Below, one piece after another: positions 20,685 to 30,112 of a stretch of DNA of 32,677 nt; within the stretch, counting starts at the first letter, position 1, and each line of letters starts with the position of its first letter. The stretch lies in the NCBI GenBank assembly GCA_016838845.1, contig JAEHKV010000027.1, positions 1-32,677 on the forward strand, in the 5' to 3' direction. The notes under the pieces were generated by a model. The model saw only the letters and a program-made list of their open reading frames with translations, made no database searches and had not been told where the DNA came from. Source of the DNA: Nitrosopumilales archaeon. GTDB lineage: Archaea > Thermoproteota > Nitrososphaeria > Nitrososphaerales > Nitrosopumilaceae. A program made the position numbers and the translations under genes.

Positions 20685-21869
20685 ATGCAAAGATCGTTAA
20701 CAATTTTTGAAGGAGCAATCAAGACAGAAGCTACACGAGAAGCATATCTGTATCAATTAGAAAAATTCAGAGAGTGGACCAAGATTAAGGATTTTGATTC
20801 GCTTCTACAAGCGCCTCAAAAGAACATCCAGGAATTGTTAGAAGATTATGTAATGTATCTAAAAAAGAAGGTATCACCCAATTCTGTGCCTATCTACTAC
20901 GCACCAATTGAGCTATTTTTTGTCATGAATGACGTTACAATCAACTATAAGAAATTAAGAAAACTGTTTCCTAAAAAAGTCAAAAAGGGTAATGAACGAG
21001 GCTACACCATAGAGGAAATAAGGAAGATTGTCAAAAACACAAAATCAAAAAGAAACAGAGCTCTGGTATTACTGTTTGCCAGCTCGGGAATTAGATTAGG
21101 AGCTATACCAGACATTCTCTTAAAACACCTCACAAAAATAGGAAAAAACAGCTATGCCATCAAAATCTATGAAGATGAAACAGAGGAGGATTATATTTTC
21201 ACTACTCCAGAGGCCACTAAATCAATTGATGAATATTTAGACGAACGGAAGAAAGATGGTGAATATGTAGATCAAAATTCACCACTTATTCGAACAAGCT
21301 ACAAACTTGGAATTGAGAAGGCCAAGTCCTGTAATTTAGATACTCTAGCTCATGTTATGGCTAGGCTTGTTAGTTGTGTGGATAGAAAGAAACGAGGTAA
21401 CAGATATGATGTTCCAAAGGATCATGGCTACCGTAAATTTTATGGAACGGTAATCAAAGACACACAAGGAATAACTCCCACAATGTCAGAGAAACTAATC
21501 AACCATATTGGAGTGGTTCAGCTTGATGGCTCTTACTTCAAACCAACCAAAGAACAAATGTTTGAATCATATCAAAAAGTGATATCTGGCCTAACCATTG
21601 ATCAAACAGAAAAACATGAAGCTTTAATCGAGTCACAAAAAGGGAAAATATCAGAGCTGGAACAGAATCAGAACAGAATTGACAATCTAGAAAAACACAT
21701 CTTACAAGAACAAAGAATCCTTGATCTAGTAGCTGTGGGAGGCCTGAAGGTTAGTAGAAAGGATGGTAGAACCAAACTAAAATGGACAATCGATCCTGAT
21801 GACCCAGATTCAATAAGAAAGAATTTTCCAGAACTGTTTGAAGAGGAAAAGGATAGAACTATTGGATAA
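20685..21869 (+). CDS. Tyrosine recombinase / integrase
   Basis: A 394-aa site-specific recombinase. The N-terminal SAM-like DNA-binding domain (about 5-95) contains EAYLYQLEKF and LLEDYVMYLKK. The catalytic domain (about 105-300) shows R137 (SSGIRLGAI), H247 and R250 (KDHGYRK), H274 (LINHIG) and the nucleophile Y284 (GSYFKP), so all key residues are present and the enzyme should be active. A coiled-coil stretch follows (about 305-345), then a C-terminal extension with KWTIDPDDPDS, which is not part of the usual fold. The ATG at 20685 has a GGGGAG purine run 12-17 nt upstream and TATA-like TTATAATGG / TTTATTA elements near 20650-20660. It is intact, not split by integration as in SSV-type elements. 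Confidence 0.9.
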   Translation: MQRSLTIFEGAIKTEATREAYLYQLEKFREWTKIKDFDSLLQAPQKNIQELLEDYVMYLKKKVSPNSVPIYYAPIELFFVMNDVTINYKKLRKLFPKKVKKGNERGYTIEEIRKIVKNTKSKRNRALVLLFASSGIRLGAIPDILLKHLTKIGKNSYAIKIYEDETEEDYIFTTPEATKSIDEYLDERKKDGEYVDQNSPLIRTSYKLGIEKAKSCNLDTLAHVMARLVSCVDRKKRGNRYDVPKDHGYRKFYGTVIKDTQGITPTMSEKLINHIGVVQLDGSYFKPTKEQMFESYQKVISGLTIDQTEKHEALIESQKGKISELEQNQNRIDNLEKHILQEQRILDLVAVGGLKVSRKDGRTKLKWTIDPDDPDSIRKNFPELFEEEKDRTIG

Positions 21870-23791: not shown

Positions 23792-25003
23792 TTATGAGAC
23801 GCGACTCGATTCCTTCCTATATTCTATTTTCAACCATATGGGAGTAATAATGGTAGTAACAGCAACCATAATCACAATTGTGGAATAAACATCCGCAGTA
23901 AGTATTCCTGATGAAATTCCAACTCCTGCCACAATAAGTCCTACTTCACCTCTTGATATCATTCCTATTCCTACCCTCATGCCTTGGGCTTTGCTTTTTA
24001 GAAATAGCATTGCTGGAAGTCCACATCCAAATAGTTTAGTAACAACTGCAATTACTATGATTACTCCACTAAGCAGTAAGATTTCCATATTTACTACTCT
24101 GAAATCCACTTGAGCACCGACTATGGCAAAGAATAATGGTGCAAAAATTAATCCAATTTTTTCAACATAAGTTTCAAGTTTTTCAAAAACTTTGGTATGG
24201 GCTAGCGCCATTCCTACTGCAAAAGCGCCAACTATTGGAGAAAGACCAATAGAACCAGCTAAAGCTGCGGTGCCAAAGAATAATGCAGTTGCAATTCCCT
24301 CCACACTTCCCTTAGCCTGCCAAAATCTTGATGAAACCAGCCTTGGAATTGCTATTGCAGAAACTAATAGCATAGCACCAAAGAATCCCAACACCTGTAG
24401 GATGGTAATTGTAACTTCCATAACATCAATTTGTTCCACTCCGCCCTCTCCTGTTGCAAGAGAAGATACTACCGAAAGAACGGCTATTGCTAGGATATCA
24501 TCAACTATCGCTGCGCTAATAATCAATCTAGCTTCTGGAGTTTTTATTTTTCCAAACTCACTTAACACTTGAACTGAAATTGCTATACTGGTAGCCGTAA
24601 GCGCAGTTGCAATTAACATAGATTGTAATACATCAAAACCAAAGATCTGGAAAACCACAAGACCCGCAAAGAATGGAATAACCACTCCTAATGTTCCAAC
24701 TGTAAAAGCTGCCTTTCCGCCTTTAAGAAATTCTTGTGGTGTCATTTGAAGTCCTGCCATAAACAAGATTACGATGGCACCTATTTCTCCAAGAAATCTA
24801 ATTTCAGTACCAATTTGTAATAATGATTCCCCATTAAAGACTAGGAATGCACCCAGAGCAAAGGGTCCAATAATCATGCCAGCTAAAAGCTCTCCTAAAA
24901 CAATGGGAAGTTTTAATCTGAAAAAGAGCTCGGCCATTAATTTTGCAGCAAAAAGTAAAATCCCAATGCCAATAATGGCCTGAATAAAGCTTTCTTCTAC
25001 CAT
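23792..25003 (-). CDS. CPA2-family cation:proton antiporter (Kef/NapA type)
   Basis: A 403-aa polytopic protein with about 12-13 membrane helices. The ion-binding VDDILAIAVLSVV segment (about residue 165) is the double-aspartate motif of electrogenic CPA2 antiporters, and TALTATSIAISVQVLSEFGK precedes it. The C-terminal half has GLSPIVGAFAVGMALA and SRGEVGLIVAGVGIS. No TrkA-type cytoplasmic domain follows; the protein ends shortly after the last helix, so it is the membrane part only. It would exchange Na+ or K+ for H+ in the cytoplasmic membrane. It lies downstream of the roadblock-like and 30-aa membrane genes, and co-transcription with them is possible. Confidence 0.92.
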   Translation of the reverse strand: MVEESFIQAIIGIGILLFAAKLMAELFFRLKLPIVLGELLAGMIIGPFALGAFLVFNGESLLQIGTEIRFLGEIGAIVILFMAGLQMTPQEFLKGGKAAFTVGTLGVVIPFFAGLVVFQIFGFDVLQSMLIATALTATSIAISVQVLSEFGKIKTPEARLIISAAIVDDILAIAVLSVVSSLATGEGGVEQIDVMEVTITILQVLGFFGAMLLVSAIAIPRLVSSRFWQAKGSVEGIATALFFGTAALAGSIGLSPIVGAFAVGMALAHTKVFEKLETYVEKIGLIFAPLFFAIVGAQVDFRVVNMEILLLSGVIIVIAVVTKLFGCGLPAMLFLKSKAQGMRVGIGMISRGEVGLIVAGVGISSGILTADVYSTIVIMVAVTTIITPIWLKIEYRKESSRVS

Positions 25004-25050: not shown

Positions 25051-25143
25051 CTAATTGAAAATAGATTTACTAAAAAATAGAAAATTTATACCGACAACAA
25101 GGCCGGCCCCAACGAGGATTATAATTATGGTGTTCTTCGTCAT
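25051..25143 (-). CDS. 30-aa single-helix membrane protein
   Basis: ORF with ATG 25143 and stop TAG at 25053-25051. It encodes one strongly hydrophobic helix (IIIILVGAGLVVGINFLFF, about 6-24) with Lys on both ends. The start lies 4 nt after the stop of the roadblock-like gene, so it would be translationally coupled, and the antiporter follows 47 bp later. Such mini-proteins can be subunits or regulators of membrane transporters. Size alone makes it tentative. Confidence 0.42.
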   Translation of the reverse strand: MTKNTIIIILVGAGLVVGINFLFFSKSIFN

Positions 25144-25147
25144 TTCT

Positions 25148-25519
25148 TCATTTGAAGATCTCTAAAGCTTTGTTTGCAATTTCCTCTGCGTCTGTATTGG
25201 GTTCCGCTGATATCACAAGAATCTTTTTGTTTAAGGGAATGGTTATCTTTACGACCTCACCTCTTTTTGCCGCAATATACTTGACAGGCCCTAAGACATC
25301 GTCAAGTTCTCGTCTCATAGAAACTTCCAAGACAAGTTGCATGAACAAAACACGTCTTTGCTCATCATTAGTGAGAGGTTTGACTCCATATCTGAATCCC
25401 CCAGTAACCAGCCGTCCCATCTGATTAATTACGCCTACAAACCTGATTCCTTGTGCATGTAGCATTTCTTTGCATGCATGTTCTAACGATTGTTTTTCCT
25501 CAGCAGTTACGAGAGACAT
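25148..25519 (-). CDS. Roadblock/profilin-like protein, thaumarchaeal DUF6659 type
   Basis: A 123-aa soluble protein with the pattern of the small thaumarchaeal family (DUF6659) that I recall as roadblock-like: IRFVGVINQMGRLVTGGFRYGVKPL, then EQRRVLFMQLVLEVSMRREL, then LGPVKYIAAKRGEVVKITIPL and a final strand-helix KKILVISAEPNTDAEEIA. The function of the family is unknown; roadblock folds often bind small GTPases or sensory complexes. The promoter region carries one of three shared 25-bp elements (25596-25620), next to TATTGATAAAAT. GGAG lies 17 nt before the ATG. Confidence 0.75.
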   Translation of the reverse strand: MSLVTAEEKQSLEHACKEMLHAQGIRFVGVINQMGRLVTGGFRYGVKPLTNDEQRRVLFMQLVLEVSMRRELDDVLGPVKYIAAKRGEVVKITIPLNKKILVISAEPNTDAEEIANKALEIFK

Positions 25520-25595
25520 TTTTTCAGTTTACTCCTATTGGTAATTTCCAACGATTTTTGCATGATTGTGTTTGGAGAAATTTATTGATAAAATA

Positions 25596-25620
25596 GTAGC
25601 AACACACTGTAGTACAATGT
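25596..25620 (-). promoter_or_regulatory. Shared 25-bp element, copy 1 (roadblock-like gene promoter)
   Basis: On the plus strand GTAGCAA followed by ACACTG-N5-CAATGT. It matches copy 2 at 20 of 25 bases and copy 3 (reverse orientation) at 21 of 25. Read in the gene's direction, the palindrome comes first and the TATA-like ATTTTATCAATAAATT (25578-25593) comes just after it. Transcription would start near 25561 and the ATG is at 25519. Confidence 0.65.
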
Positions 25621-25675
25621 ACTTTTGTAATGGGATAACTATGGCATCATATATGGCAAGAAACTGTTCTGGCCC

Positions 25676-26335
25676 CTACTCATAATCTATTTCTCTGTTG
25701 CCATATTTCATATAAAGAATAGCTGCCACCGCCACACCTAATGGAATCACAATTATTGCAACAAGAATCTCATACTGTATCTCGAATCTTCTTGCTGGCT
25801 GAACAACTATTTCATCCGTAGAGGTTACATCTGGATTTTCATAAACCATTGTAGTAAACGTTACTGTTCTTAAGGAAGGAGAATCAGCTGGTGCTCTAGC
25901 AGCGCTTTGAATTCCTGAGGTTCCTCCGCTTTGAATATTTTCAAATCTAATCTCTACCGGTCCAGGGAACTCAAAGATAAAATTTCGATAATCCCCACCA
26001 ATGCTAGTCAAACCTTCATCACGAAATATTTCATCACCATTTTGAATCAGTATTAGATCATACTTCATTTTGTCTAAATTTGTATTAGTAGCTGGGTCAT
26101 AGGTTTGATAAATGAATGTAACCTTCTCGTTTGTTTTGATAACATTTGGTTCCCATGTCATATCAATCTCAATTATCCCATCAGCAGTATATTCAATCAC
26201 AGGAAATTTTTCTATTTTATTTCCCAAGGAATCATGAGGATAATCTGGAATTGAAACAGTTTGTTCTTTTGCAATTGTAGTTTGAAATGTAAGCAAAAGA
26301 AAATAGATACAGAAAATAAAAAACAAAGATTTCAT
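25676..26335 (-). CDS. Secreted cell-surface protein with C-terminal membrane anchor
   Basis: A 219-aa protein with signal peptide (about 1-22, hydrophobic FFIFCIYFLLLTFQ then TIA-K), an extracytoplasmic beta-rich domain (23-185) and a C-terminal helix (about 188-208, ILVAIIVIPLGVAVAAILY) with a short charged tail. This is the layout of many thaumarchaeal surface proteins whose C-terminal anchors resemble PEFG-type sequences, though no PEFG motif is present. The ligand is unknown. It lies 35 bp downstream of the CBS-like gene on the same strand, so they are probably one operon driven by the shared element at 27252. Confidence 0.72.
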   Translation of the reverse strand: MKSLFFIFCIYFLLLTFQTTIAKEQTVSIPDYPHDSLGNKIEKFPVIEYTADGIIEIDMTWEPNVIKTNEKVTFIYQTYDPATNTNLDKMKYDLILIQNGDEIFRDEGLTSIGGDYRNFIFEFPGPVEIRFENIQSGGTSGIQSAARAPADSPSLRTVTFTTMVYENPDVTSTDEIVVQPARRFEIQYEILVAIIVIPLGVAVAAILYMKYGNREIDYE

Positions 26336-26370
26336 GATGGAGTTTTCTCAATGACAACTTAAAAAATCAT

Positions 26371-27135
26371 TCACCGTAGAAGAAGAGCTATATCCCAAGG
26401 TGAAATGATCCGATCCTGGGTCATGACATAGGGGGTGTCCATACCAAGCATCCTTTTAGCTAATTCTGGAATTGGCAGATCTTCAGATATCTTTTCAAGC
26501 TTTTTCAGAGGGAATGTACCAGCTTTGATTTCCAAAAAGTTTGATACACCATCCAAGTAATTTAATTTAAAAGCAATTTTTTCAAGGATCAATCTATCAC
26601 TTATGAAAGACGAGTAATCCTCCAAAACCAGTCTTCGAGTTTGCGTGTGAAACATGGATGTTAAAACATAATCCATTGTATCCTCTTGTGTGAATGTGAT
26701 GATGTTCTTTTTGGGTATTTCACTTGCCTTCATATCAGTTTTTGATAATGCAGATACCTCAAGTAACGTTCGTACCGAAATGGCCGAATACCATCCCTTA
26801 TCATGAGGGATTACTGCAAACCCAGTCCTTTGATGCTGCATCATTGATATCAAATCTGATAAGGTGGTTTGCAGTGTCACTATATTACTAAAACCCCCCA
26901 TAACTTCACCTGCGGTGATTTGGTTAAAAAATTCAAAAGTTGGATTTTTGAGTAGTCCAAGAAGCGTTTCTTTTACTCCTAAAATTCCTATTGGTTTGTC
27001 GTCTTGAATTATTATAATATTGTCGATAAAAGATTCCAGATGGCTGCACAACATTGACGTCATTACCCACATCTTTTCAGTTGGTGGTGCTGCAACAGCT
27101 GGTGTAGACACCAATGATTGTGGGAGATCTTTCAA
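26371..27135 (-). CDS. CBS-domain-like protein
   Basis: A 254-aa protein that reads as two or more CBS-like units: a first around 1-60 (IDNIIIIQDDKPIGILGVKETLLGLL), a second around 65-125 (AGEVMGGFSNIVTLQTTLSDLISMM...GFAVIPHD) and a third-fourth pair around 135-250 (KNIITFTQEDTMDYVLTSMFHTQTRRLVLE). CBS domains sense adenine nucleotides. The first canonical start is TTG at 27135, yet the frame stays open for about 29 more codons upstream (sequence like GPESQARTRNKKIQAG), which look coding. No ATG, GTG or TTG lies in that stretch. The promoter element at 27252-27276 would give a transcript beginning near 27219, matching the longer form. Confidence 0.7.
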   Translation of the reverse strand: MKDLPQSLVSTPAVAAPPTEKMWVMTSMLCSHLESFIDNIIIIQDDKPIGILGVKETLLGLLKNPTFEFFNQITAGEVMGGFSNIVTLQTTLSDLISMMQHQRTGFAVIPHDKGWYSAISVRTLLEVSALSKTDMKASEIPKKNIITFTQEDTMDYVLTSMFHTQTRRLVLEDYSSFISDRLILEKIAFKLNYLDGVSNFLEIKAGTFPLKKLEKISEDLPIPELAKRMLGMDTPYVMTQDRIISPWDIALLLR

Positions 27136-27251
27136 AGAATATTTTGAAATAGGAGCCCCTGCTTGAATTTTCTTATTACGAGTTCTAGCCTGTGATTCTG
27201 GTCCTAATATTATTCCCGTGTTTATATTTCTGCAAAGCTATTGAAATAATG

Positions 27252-27276
27252 GTAGCAATACATTGTGTTGCAATGT
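27252..27276 (-). promoter_or_regulatory. Shared 25-bp element, copy 2 (CBS-like gene promoter)
   Basis: On the plus strand GTAGCAAT followed by ACATTG-N5-CAATGT, a perfect 6-bp inverted pair at 27260-27276. The adjacent TATTGAAATAAT (27240-27251) is the TATA region in the gene's direction. The layout matches copies 1 and 3. It is divergent to the RHH gene at 27353, whose own TATA is near 27328. Confidence 0.65.
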
Positions 27277-27352
27277 AAAGTGAAATTAGTGAGGACCTTG
27301 TATTTTTGCATGTTTTTTTACAGAGATTTATTAGTTGTATTAGCCTAGACTT

Positions 27353-27910
27353 ATGATAATGACACAAAAAAATTACGATGACACCATACAAAAGAAAACT
27401 CAAACAATTACATTTCGACTTTCCTCATCAATCATAGAAGATTTAAAAGAAGACGCAGAAATTGAAAAAATCAATCTTAATCAACTTATTTCAAAAATAT
27501 TATCCTATCACGTTCTATGGGAGAAATATGAAAGAAAGGTAGGCTTATTGCCCATGACAAAACCGTTTGTTAAAGATGCGGTAAACAGACTTGATGAAGA
27601 AGAAATAATACACCTTGCACAAAGAATTGAGAAAGATACCTCTAAAGACATTTTTAATTCAATAAAGATTGACTATACTGTAGAGGATTTTATAGAAATT
27701 TTGCGAGCGTGGCTAAATGTTGTCTGGATGCAACATTATATAAAAAAAGGAAAAAATTGTTATCATTTTAGAATCCAACACGACCTTGGAAAAAAATGGT
27801 CATTATATATCAAAACTTTGGTAGTGGGCCTTTTTGAGGATATATTAAATAAAAAATTAGAAGCAAAAACTACAAAAAATACAATATCATTTGTTTTTCC
27901 ACGAGAATAG
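27353..27910 (+). CDS. RHH-domain protein with C-terminal domain of unknown function
   Basis: A 185-aa protein. Residues about 17-55 form an RHH domain: strand TQTITFRL, helix SSSIIEDLKEDAEIEK, helix INLNQLISKILSYHV. The C-terminal part (70-185) is helix- and strand-mixed, with VGLLPMTKPFVKDAVNRLDEE and a terminal KNTISFVFPRE. It has one Cys (KKGKNCYHF) and no recognised ligand site. This is a regulator with a sensory or oligomerisation domain. The ATG at 27353 (or 27359) is 26 bp from GATTTATTAG, supporting a leaderless transcript. It is divergent to the CBS-like gene and may bind the shared element between them, which is a guess. Confidence 0.72.
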   Translation: MIMTQKNYDDTIQKKTQTITFRLSSSIIEDLKEDAEIEKINLNQLISKILSYHVLWEKYERKVGLLPMTKPFVKDAVNRLDEEEIIHLAQRIEKDTSKDIFNSIKIDYTVEDFIEILRAWLNVVWMQHYIKKGKNCYHFRIQHDLGKKWSLYIKTLVVGLFEDILNKKLEAKTTKNTISFVFPRE

Positions 27911-27990
27911 ATTTCCATAATTTCAAACCAATTTTCTTATTTTATTATACGACATGACTCAAATTTTCTAGTTACGAAATTAGAAGGATA

Positions 27991-28015
27991 ACATTGTGTT
28001 ACATTGTGTTGCTGC
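27991..28015 (+). promoter_or_regulatory. Shared 25-bp element, copy 3 (RHH/TFB promoter)
   Basis: Reverse-strand copy of the element; on the plus strand it begins with ACATTGTGTT twice in tandem (27991-28010). Its reverse complement matches copy 1 at 21 of 25 bases. The TATA-like GATATATCTATAAT (28017-28030) follows, so the order operator-TATA-gene is the same as in the other two copies. Transcription would start at about 28049. Confidence 0.65.
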
Positions 28016-28048
28016 TGATATATCTATAATGTGGAAAATATAAAAAAC

Positions 28049-28231
28049 ATGGTGAAGACTAAATCTCTTCATTTAAGATTACCTAGATATTTGTATCAAC
28101 AAATTGAAGTTAGATCTAACATAGTGGGTTGCTCAAATGAGGATTTTGTAAAAAAAGCACTTGAGCTTGCAATAAATGGTTACAGCGAATTTGATTTTAA
28201 AGATAAACCAGTTGACAAAGAAATTGAATAA
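28049..28231 (+). CDS. Small RHH protein upstream of TFB
   Basis: A 60-aa protein with an RHH domain: strand TKSLHLRL, helix PRYLYQQIEVRSNI, helix CSNEDFVKKALELAINGY, then an acidic tail. The ATG at 28049 is chosen over GTG 28031 because the TATA-like run is centred near 28023, exactly 26 bp upstream. It probably forms an operon with the TFB gene 67 bp downstream. Its own promoter carries the shared 25-bp element, which makes this the best candidate for the element's binding protein. Confidence 0.72.
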   Translation: MVKTKSLHLRLPRYLYQQIEVRSNIVGCSNEDFVKKALELAINGYSEFDFKDKPVDKEIE

Positions 28232-28298: not shown

Positions 28299-29186
28299 AT
28301 GGAAAAAGGATGTTGCCCAAAATGTAACAAAAAGGAGGTGATATCTGATGCCGAAGCAGGTGAAATGATTTGTGGATCTTGTGGTTTAGTACTATCTGAC
28401 CGAATAGAAGAATCTGGACCTGAACGGCGTTCTTTTTTTGATAAGCCAGATAGAATGAGAACAGGATCTCGTACGTCTCTTGCTATTCATGACATGGGCT
28501 TGGCAACTATTATCGGCCCACTAAACAAAGATGTTTCAGGAAAACCTCTTTCGCCTGATATGACAAACACGATCAGACGGATAAGAAAATGGGATAATCA
28601 AAGTCGTCACGGTGGGAGAACTGAAAGAAACTTGCAACAAGCATTTACATATCTTAACACCATGAAAGACAAGCTTGCCATATCTAATGCGGTAATAGAA
28701 AAAGCTGCTTATCTTTATAGAAAAGTTTTGGAAAAAAACCTGCTAATAGGAAGATCAATATCAGCGTTTATGGCAGCTGCATTATATGCAGCGTGCCGTG
28801 AGGCCGAAACCCCAAAAACCCGTAAGGAAATAGCCAAAGCAGCTAATGTTCCAAATAGACTTGTTGGAGTTTGCTACAGAATATTAGTCAAGGAATTAGA
28901 TTTGAAGATACCAGTAGTAGATCCAGTATATTGTATTGCTAGAATTTCCAGCAAAATAGGAATCTCTGAAAAAACAAAACGTTGTTCCATAGAAATTCTT
29001 AGGAAATCTGAAGAAAATAACATCTCAGGAGGTAAAGATCCAATGGCGCTGGCAGCTTCGGCTCTGTATCTTAGTTGTGTCAAAATGAATGAGAATCATT
29101 CTCAGGCCAAATTAGCCGAGGCCGCTGACCTTACAACAGTAACAATAAGAAACAGATGCAAGGACTTAGAAATATTGAAAATCTAG
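28299..29186 (+). CDS. tfb: Transcription initiation factor IIB (TFB)
   Basis: Recruits RNA polymerase to TATA/TBP promoters. A 295-aa protein with zinc ribbon (CPKC near residue 6 and CGSC near 25), B-reader/linker (RRSFFDKPDRMRTGSRTSLAIHD) and two cyclin folds (about 100-190 and 195-290), each with its A-A-x-L-Y motif (AAALYAACR, AASALYLSC). The frame is open upstream to 28176, but family proteins begin just before the zinc ribbon, so ATG 28299 is preferred. Nitrososphaerota usually carry several TFBs; this one sits under a promoter with the shared operator, so it may be a condition-specific factor. Confidence 0.93.
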   Translation: MEKGCCPKCNKKEVISDAEAGEMICGSCGLVLSDRIEESGPERRSFFDKPDRMRTGSRTSLAIHDMGLATIIGPLNKDVSGKPLSPDMTNTIRRIRKWDNQSRHGGRTERNLQQAFTYLNTMKDKLAISNAVIEKAAYLYRKVLEKNLLIGRSISAFMAAALYAACREAETPKTRKEIAKAANVPNRLVGVCYRILVKELDLKIPVVDPVYCIARISSKIGISEKTKRCSIEILRKSEENNISGGKDPMALAASALYLSCVKMNENHSQAKLAEAADLTTVTIRNRCKDLEILKI

Positions 29187-29359: not shown

Positions 29360-29596
29360 ATGGCGATGGCATTTGTGTTAATCAACTGTGATTTAGGGGC
29401 AGAGGAATTCGTTATTTCAGAACTTAAAGAAATCGAAACTGTAAAGGAGGTTAGGGGAGTTCTTGGTACCTACGATATTCTAGTCAAACTAGAAGATGAG
29501 TCGTTAGATGAAATAAGCAAAACAATAACTTTGAAAATTCGTAAGTTGGACAAAATTCGTTTTACAATGACTTTGAATATCATCAAAGGTCAGTAA
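29360..29596 (+). CDS. Stand-alone Lrp/AsnC effector (RAM) domain protein
   Basis: A 78-aa ferredoxin-like domain, the amino-acid-binding RAM domain of Lrp/AsnC regulators without the helix-turn-helix. It has MAFVLINCDLGAEEFVISELKEI, the loop VRGVLGTYDILVKLE and the terminal RFTMTLNII. Such single domains form rings and may sense amino acids or modulate full-length Lrp proteins. The ATG at 29360 has a TATA-like CATATCTAA about 26 bp upstream. It precedes the small Cys-rich ORF by 10 bp. Confidence 0.88.
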   Translation: MAMAFVLINCDLGAEEFVISELKEIETVKEVRGVLGTYDILVKLEDESLDEISKTITLKIRKLDKIRFTMTLNIIKGQ

Positions 29597-29606
29597 CAAA
29601 AGAGAC

Positions 29607-29717
29607 TTGCAACAAAAGAAATGTCCATGCAAATGTGGCTGCACTAAAACAATATCGAATGTATATTATGATATTTGCATTCACTGTACACTTGGAACAC
29701 ATAAAAAACCTCAATAA
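29607..29717 (+). CDS. 36-aa cysteine-rich zinc-binding protein
   Basis: ORF from TTG 29607 to TAA 29717. The sequence has KKCPCKCGC near the start and ICIHC later (C6, C8, C10, C12, C24, C27 plus H26 and H32), so a small zinc or metal-binding knuckle is likely. It sits tightly after the RAM-domain gene and 11 bp before the carbonic-anhydrase-like gene. Codon pattern and Cys spacing support it; size and TTG start keep confidence moderate. Confidence 0.5.
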   Translation: MQQKKCPCKCGCTKTISNVYYDICIHCTLGTHKKPQ

Positions 29718-29728
29718 AATGAATTGTG

Positions 29729-30112
29729 ATGGCAGATGGTAAATTCGGTACTGCGATAAATTGCATAGATGGAAGAACTCAAAATCCTGTATCGCAATGG
29801 ATTAAAGAAAATTATTCTGTAGATTATGTTGATACAGTAACGGAGCCTGGTCCTGATAAAGTATTGTTGGAGGTAAATATTGAAAAAATAGAGCAGATAA
29901 AATCAAAGCTTCTCATTTCCATTAAAGCTCATAATTCCTCATTGATCGTTATTGCTGGGCATCATGACTGTGCAGGAAATCCTGTCTTAAAAGAAGAACA
30001 TCTAACACAAATAAAAAAATCAATTAACATGATAAAATCTTGGAATTTTCCAGTTAAAGTTGTTGGAGTGTGGGTTAACGACCAATGGAAAGTTGAGCAA
30101 ATTCAAGAGTAG
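29729..30112 (+). CDS. Minimal beta-carbonic-anhydrase-like protein
   Basis: A 127-aa protein with the metal and catalytic signature of beta-carbonic anhydrases: INCIDGR (C, D, R in CxDxR) and GHHDCAGNP (HxxC). It is far shorter than normal beta-CA (about 200 aa), and I associate it with a prokaryotic putative carbonic anhydrase group (Pro_CA_2 type). It should bind zinc; CO2/bicarbonate interconversion is inferred and would suit an autotroph that fixes bicarbonate. ATG 29729 is favoured over GTG 29726 because ACACATAAAAAA is centred 26 bp upstream. Confidence 0.68.
   Translation: MADGKFGTAINCIDGRTQNPVSQWIKENYSVDYVDTVTEPGPDKVLLEVNIEKIEQIKSKLLISIKAHNSSLIVIAGHHDCAGNPVLKEEHLTQIKKSINMIKSWNFPVKVVGVWVNDQWKVEQIQE

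Follow-up and report, generated by a model that had tools for sequence, protein, structure and literature searches.

A 25-bp operator at three promoters of a Nitrosopumilales contig, the predicted binding site of a 185-aa ribbon-helix-helix protein

The stretch of DNA analysed here, which we call the window, is contig JAEHKV010000027.1 (32,677 nucleotides) of a Nitrosopumilales archaeon (GenBank assembly GCA_016838845.1). It contains three copies of a 25-bp element, referred to below as the operator, each lying beside the TATA-like element of a promoter. Copy 1 (25596..25620, minus strand) is upstream of the genes for a DUF6659 protein, a 30-aa membrane open reading frame (ORF) and a Na+/H+ exchanger; copy 2 (27252..27276, minus) is upstream of the genes for a CBS-domain protein and a surface protein; and copy 3 (27991..28015, plus) is upstream of the genes for a 60-aa ribbon-helix-helix (RHH) protein and for TFB, the archaeal TFIIB. 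Copies 2 and 3 are separated by the gene of another RHH protein, 185 aa in length (RHH185; 27353..27910, plus), which starts 77 bp beyond copy 2 and is divergent from it. We estimate a probability of roughly 0.7 that RHH185 binds the 25-bp element and that the element marks a local stress regulon, a prediction made from sequence comparison.

To our knowledge, specific gene regulation in ammonia-oxidising archaea is little known experimentally, and their many TFB and RHH paralogues are mostly without assigned sites. The analysis provides a precise operator, a named candidate regulator and predicted targets in seven genera, together with a promoter geometry suitable for in vitro tests. No description of the motif or of the regulon was found in the open-access literature.

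Three operator copies in the window

Set in one orientation, the three copies read GTAGCAACACACTGTAGTACAATGT, GTAGCAATACATTGTGTTGCAATGT and GCAGCAACACAATGTAACACAATGT, with pairwise identities of 20/25, 21/25 and 18/25. On the gene strand the element can be written as ACATTGTatTACATTGTgtTGCTAC, and TATATCTA-like DNA follows at a distance of up to about 3 bp. The TATA-like elements are located at 25585..25594 (minus, TTTTATCAA) in promoter 1, at 27241..27249 (minus, TTATTTCAA) in promoter 2 and at 28018..28026 (plus, ATATATCTA) in promoter 3. An earlier reading made from the letters of the window alone (the sequence-only reading) had located the three copies by position and strand (there plus, plus and minus, opposite to the gene strands given here), had put their pairwise agreement at 18-21 of 25 bases, and had described the order operator, TATA, gene at all three promoters; all of this agrees with the present results.

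The same reading had called this placement hard to attribute to chance, and the scores justify that judgement. With a matrix built only from the sites of other genomes, copies 1, 2 and 3 score 32.6, 28.9 and 34.0 bits, the next non-overlapping site of the window scores 9.0 bits, and none of 6 million first-order Markov positions exceeds 16.6 bits. Because all three copies score far above this null maximum, chance is excluded as their source. In leave-one-out scans of the window, the omitted copy ranked first among the remaining sites in all three cases. Genome-wide (1.52 Mb in 174 contigs), the 21-mer consensus occurs with 0-1 mismatch at these three sites only, the next-best site having 2 mismatches, and a 25-bp pattern derived from the window copies gives 3 matches, compared with 0 for the reversed-pattern control.

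Conservation of the operator and its promoters

The survey covered 250 genomes of the family, to which the window-only pattern was applied ahead of any choice of loci. It matched 82 times, compared with 12 matches of the reversed pattern; its best matches adjoin orthologues of the RHH185 gene, also in other genera. Such orthologues (53-68% identity) occur in 25 genomes including this one. We then defined a strong site as one scoring at least 24.5 bits with a 39-position model of operator plus TATA; most of the sites behind this model came from RHH185 loci. Of the 25 genomes that encode an RHH185 orthologue, 24 contain strong sites, as do 2 of the 225 that lack one (Fisher p of about 4e-30, not corrected for relatedness). 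The 25th genome (G226) has a weaker site of 15.5 bits directly behind its own RHH gene. The site-bearing genomes cover seven genera and about two dozen related species, and one of them (G139) has more than 10 sites. Coding matches inside an ATPase gene (L091, L097, L098) and doubtful sites (L093, L099:8225) were dropped.

The sequence-only reading had proposed the core ACATTG-N5-CAATGT, which is complete in copy 2, incomplete in copies 1 and 3, and not what is conserved. The conserved core consists of two ACANTGT palindromes with a centre-to-centre distance of 10 bp (one helical turn), followed by GCTAC beside TATA. The central base of each box is unconstrained; in the window, the proximal box has C in copy 1, T in copy 2 and A in copy 3. 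Among 49 sites, the proximal box is exact in 38 and the distal box, which is looser, in 13. The ACANTGT pair has the form of tandem short palindromic boxes expected of RHH operators; this fits binding by an RHH protein, and we treat it as a lead rather than a test. GCTAC occupies the position of the TFB recognition element (BRE) and is absent from the ordinary promoters of the same loci, which likewise yielded no clear BRE consensus.

The placement of the operator is also conserved. In the 49 sites, TATA-like DNA lies at a fixed place, 2-11 nt past the operator, and 34 of 49 unique leaders have an ATG 32-35 nt past the site (29 of those at 32 or 33), compared with a background further downstream of 0.73 ATG per offset. 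Because of this ATG spacing, the promoters are predicted to be of the leaderless type (leaderless mRNA). The clustering of the three copies within 2.4 kb, together with an integrase-like gene about 4 kb from copy 1, could point to recent promoter duplication within an island, or to a repeat without regulatory role. However, the sequence flanking the copies beyond TATA is unrelated from copy to copy, and the 25 bp are kept across genera at a fixed distance from the start codon. The start-codon spacing and the other-species matrix practically refute this explanation, which we consider extremely improbable.

The genes directly behind operators, in the window and in other species, form a recurring set of targets. 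The commonest is a Zn-binding protein of about 65 aa with the N-terminus MAQTC (13 promoters), followed by DUF6659 (9 promoters including the window), Pro_CA_2 carbonic-anhydrase-like proteins and universal stress proteins (Usp; 7 promoters each), a CitMHS/ArsB-type permease with a 67-aa companion (5 promoters) and CBS proteins (3 promoters plus the window). A zinc-type alcohol dehydrogenase is also among the targets, and the RHH gene itself is a target at L100, L104 and probably L099. These data support the interpretation of the shared operator as the mark of a predicted stress-type regulon. The regulon proposed by the sequence-only reading has held up, in that copies of the site stand next to TATA, ahead of leaderless starts, at a set of genes that recurs between species. 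When this genome and related ones were scanned with a matrix, the sites kept a fixed spacing to the starts, and the motif was conserved rather than randomly scattered.

The sequence-only reading had included a TFB in the regulon. TFB does recur as a target (the window, L101 and L110), without being a constant member. These targets, together with the position of GCTAC and its absence from ordinary promoters, could mean that the element is an alternative BRE, a core-promoter variant read by a dedicated TFB such as the one behind copy 3, and that the RHH gene is incidental. However, a conserved element of 25 bp with two palindromes exceeds a BRE, and the TFB of the window (28299..29186, plus, downstream of the 60-aa RHH gene; Pfam TFIIB, E 5e-35) has no clear orthologue that follows the motif: its best matches, of 57-62% identity, are at the level of general paralogues and include motif-free genomes. 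TFBs are present in 244 of the 250 genomes. A dedicated-TFB promoter class, which requires a TFB orthologue that follows the motif, was dropped as very unlikely. Because TFB is ubiquitous and the window copy lacks such an orthologue, TFB would be an output of the regulon, recurrent but not constant, rather than its definition.

Candidate regulator and proposed mechanism

RHH185 is very probably the regulator, because strong sites and its orthologues co-occur in the genomes surveyed, and it is the sole gene found to track the motif across genomes. Its N-terminus is CopG-like; the CopG_antitoxin profile matches 17 of 18 RHH185 orthologues (best E 2e-6). Six loci have the gene in divergent orientation no more than about 110 bp from an operator, and three have it behind one. 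One natural control is provided by G049, a genome congeneric with G046, which has the Usp, 67-aa and permease genes and neither an RHH185 orthologue nor the operator; it indicates that the operator tracks the putative regulator rather than the targets.

The C-terminal domain of RHH185 (about 120 aa) is conserved and has no assigned family. A sequence search with RHH185 gave no match among solved structures, and the fold search with its model produced weak matches only, some of them to TRAPP/H-NOX-type folds (TM 0.38-0.44), which were not used. The viral contigs searched contained no relative of RHH185, and a viral origin was dropped for this reason. Two side observations concern the gene in other lineages. 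At four loci of genus g16 (L079, L109, L117, L118), SQVCTLRL replaces T-x-[ST]-F-R-L in the RHH strand region, and the operator is altered next to GCTAC (TTACAATGTAATGCTAC), possibly by protein-site co-variation. Upstream of the RHH gene at several Nitrososphaerales loci (L132, L133, L134, L135, L138), AACAACAATCTTTTTAA-like DNA is shared, possibly as the promoter or operator of that gene.

Several points weigh against the assignment. The RHH185 of the window scores 23, below the Pfam curated cutoff of 28 for the RHH domain, and its AlphaFold model (pLDDT, the predicted local distance difference test, 74) has two helices and leaves the N-terminal strand, within the first 21 residues, unresolved. 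Relatedness of the genomes inflates the Fisher p. Strong sites occur in G131 and G147, which have no RHH185 orthologue, and the operator motif was not found near the Nitrososphaerales RHH185 orthologues. In addition, RHH185, the sites and the targets are linked, so that another linked factor could explain the co-occurrence.

Two such factors were considered. The 60-aa RHH-like protein (28049..28231, plus) lies directly behind copy 3, with a leaderless ATG (28049) 33 nt past it, and the sequence-only reading had suggested it as a possible regulator; the MAQTC Zn-binding protein is the commonest target. However, among 28 other genomes tested, 8 have matches to the 60-aa protein, at only 26-33% identity; none of the other 40 loci examined contains a homologue, and the Zn-binding protein was not found in the neighbourhood of the window. 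Binding of the site by a factor of this kind is unlikely. Because of its weak matches, the 60-aa RHH protein was dropped as regulator, contrary to the earlier suggestion, and is better read as a probable target.

Known systems provide a framework for the assignment to RHH185. In MetJ/CopG-type bacterial operators, short palindromic boxes stand in tandem and RHH dimers bind side by side; the present element differs from these operators in box sequence, in its 10-bp pitch and in its placement beside an archaeal BRE/TATA. Among archaeal proteins, CdrS of Haloferax volcanii is likewise of the RHH type and has a defined motif ahead of its target promoters, in most cases 41-110 nt upstream of the transcription start site (PMC8406309). 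However, CdrS is small, has a single domain and is coupled to cell division, whereas RHH185 has the additional C-terminal domain and a stress-type gene set.

The closest parallel in promoter architecture is TFB-RF1 of Pyrococcus furiosus, whose palindrome lies just upstream of a weak BRE plus TATA and for which activation was shown (PMC5937170). In both cases, a palindromic site lies immediately upstream of BRE/TATA at a conserved distance (here, TATA at 2-11 nt and the start at 32-35 nt), and few operons are targeted, including that of the regulator itself (PMC5937170). The TFB-RF1 site is a single palindrome, TCTG-N5-CAGA, whereas the present one combines a tandem pair of 7-bp palindromes with GCTAC at the BRE position; the candidate regulator also differs, and the activation demonstrated for TFB-RF1 is here inferred. 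The system is predicted to work like a local regulon of the TFB-RF1 type with an RHH-type operator.

In the proposed mechanism, two RHH185 dimers would occupy the two ACANTGT boxes, which share one face of the helix, and GCTAC would extend into the BRE position next to TATA. From this site, about 33-57 bp ahead of the start codon, RHH185 would help TFB and the TATA-binding protein (TBP) to load on a weak core promoter, and would thereby switch on the leaderless mRNAs of DUF6659-exchanger, CBS-surface protein and 60-aa RHH-TFB. TFB and the small RHH protein would be outputs and could add a second regulatory step.

Activation is slightly favoured over repression, since the operator is situated mostly upstream of the core promoter, as in archaeal activators such as TFB-RF1. 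The overlap with BRE, which also counts against the mechanism as proposed, would fit a repressor too: the same operator and RHH regulator could block TFB/TBP over BRE and be released by a stress signal, with the divergent RHH gene autoregulated. The RHH regulators characterised so far mostly act as repressors. The invariant GCTAC is immediately adjacent to TATA, and an archaeal precedent exists for a promoter-bound regulator that acts by steric hindrance (PMC5937170). However, the greater part of the site is ahead of the core promoter and not over TATA or the start site, and the TATA boxes behind the operators are often imperfect, which suits activator-dependent promoters. We regard the repressor as possible but less probable than activation by RHH185.

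Window genes, leaders in relatives and mobile-element context

At promoter 1, the ATG 32 nt from copy 1 (25563) opens a short leaderless ORF of 19 codons (18 aa, MQKSLEITNRSKLKKCLS; 25507..25563, minus), whose stop overlaps the first codons of the DUF6659 gene (ATG 25519). The latter (123 aa; 25148..25519, minus) had been called roadblock-like in the sequence-only reading, an identity that gives way to the match with DUF6659 (Pfam PF20364, E 3e-15). The 30-aa membrane ORF (25051..25143, minus) stands between it and the gene of the Na+/H+ exchanger family protein (403 aa; 23792..25003, minus; Pfam PF00999, E 1e-60), which takes the place of the permease behind DUF6659 in the window. Small membrane ORFs likewise precede DUF6659 at L085 and L100.

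At promoter 2, there is no ATG, GTG or TTG at the expected leaderless start. The frame of the CBS-domain protein (Pfam CBS; 26371..27219, minus) is open upstream of its listed TTG start (27135). Because the codon 32 nt from copy 2 is an in-frame ACG (27219), and the alignment of homologues extends upstream of the TTG, beginning at about residue 16-22 of the extended protein, the gene appears to start at this non-AUG codon; alternatively, the ACG may be a metagenome assembly error or a strain variant. The next gene (25676..26335, minus) encodes a 219-aa protein with a signal peptide, a C-terminal membrane segment and no Pfam family. On the other side of the regulon, TFB is followed at 29360-30112 (plus) by the genes for a protein with an AsnC-type ligand-binding domain and for a Pro_CA_2 carbonic-anhydrase-like protein (29726-30112); this Pro_CA_2 copy has no operator ahead, although Pro_CA_2 is an operator target in other species.

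At about 15 promoters in relatives (L105, L106, L107, L080, L114, L101, L086, L112, L115, L103, L100, L102, L085, L104, L108), the leaderless ATG opens a putative ORF of about 10 codons (MKTKEVIKQV-like) that contains the Shine-Dalgarno-like AAAGGAGGTGAT. This mini-ORF is followed by a hairpin and a U-tract, and the main gene begins at about +120; the conserved leader is about 95 nt long. RNAalifold found 14 pairs, five with two-sided changes, in a subset of ten leaders, while a first, wider alignment, in which divergent members were misaligned, gave no consensus fold. Divergent leaders have different stems at the same place (z-scores down to -3.8), and one well-aligned leader reaches only z = -0.8. 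With a covariance model, the leader was detected in 12 of the 250 genomes, every match being just downstream of an operator; Rfam gave no match in the window or in the leader-bearing loci. The frame of the mini-ORF is kept across spacing changes, and its variable columns have no third-codon-position bias (6, 7 and 5). The leader of promoter 1 in the window has the overlapping short ORF and no such hairpin (z = +0.6). We consider the leader a candidate attenuator, as a lead rather than a demonstrated mechanism, and a possible case of control by an upstream ORF in archaea.

The families UspA, CBS, Zn-ribbon, CopG/RHH and TFIIB are among the 20 commonest on thaumarchaeal integrated mobile elements (PMC6563490). 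This cargo matches the regulon; in the accessible part of that source it is described as gene content, not in terms of a shared operator. The window itself has a gene for a tyrosine-integrase-like protein (394 aa; 20685-21869, plus), with a weak, sub-threshold match to Pfam Phage_int_SAM_4. It lies between a 3-hydroxyacyl-CoA dehydrogenase gene and the regulon, and may mark the edge of an integrated element. The matching gene content and the integrase-like gene suggest that the regulon may be mobile cargo, which would tie the recurring Usp/CBS/Zn-ribbon/RHH/TFB cargo of these elements to one possible regulatory system. A more tentative and rather doubtful extension is a mobile two-layer stress regulon, in which an RHH operator fused to BRE/TATA would be combined, in relatives, with a translation-coupled attenuator leader.

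A homologue of the integrase-like gene is present at L088. At the same locus, in a genome without an RHH185 orthologue, a strong operator plus TATA (L088:6267-6291; G147:C52) lies ahead of a ribosomal S26e-like gene.

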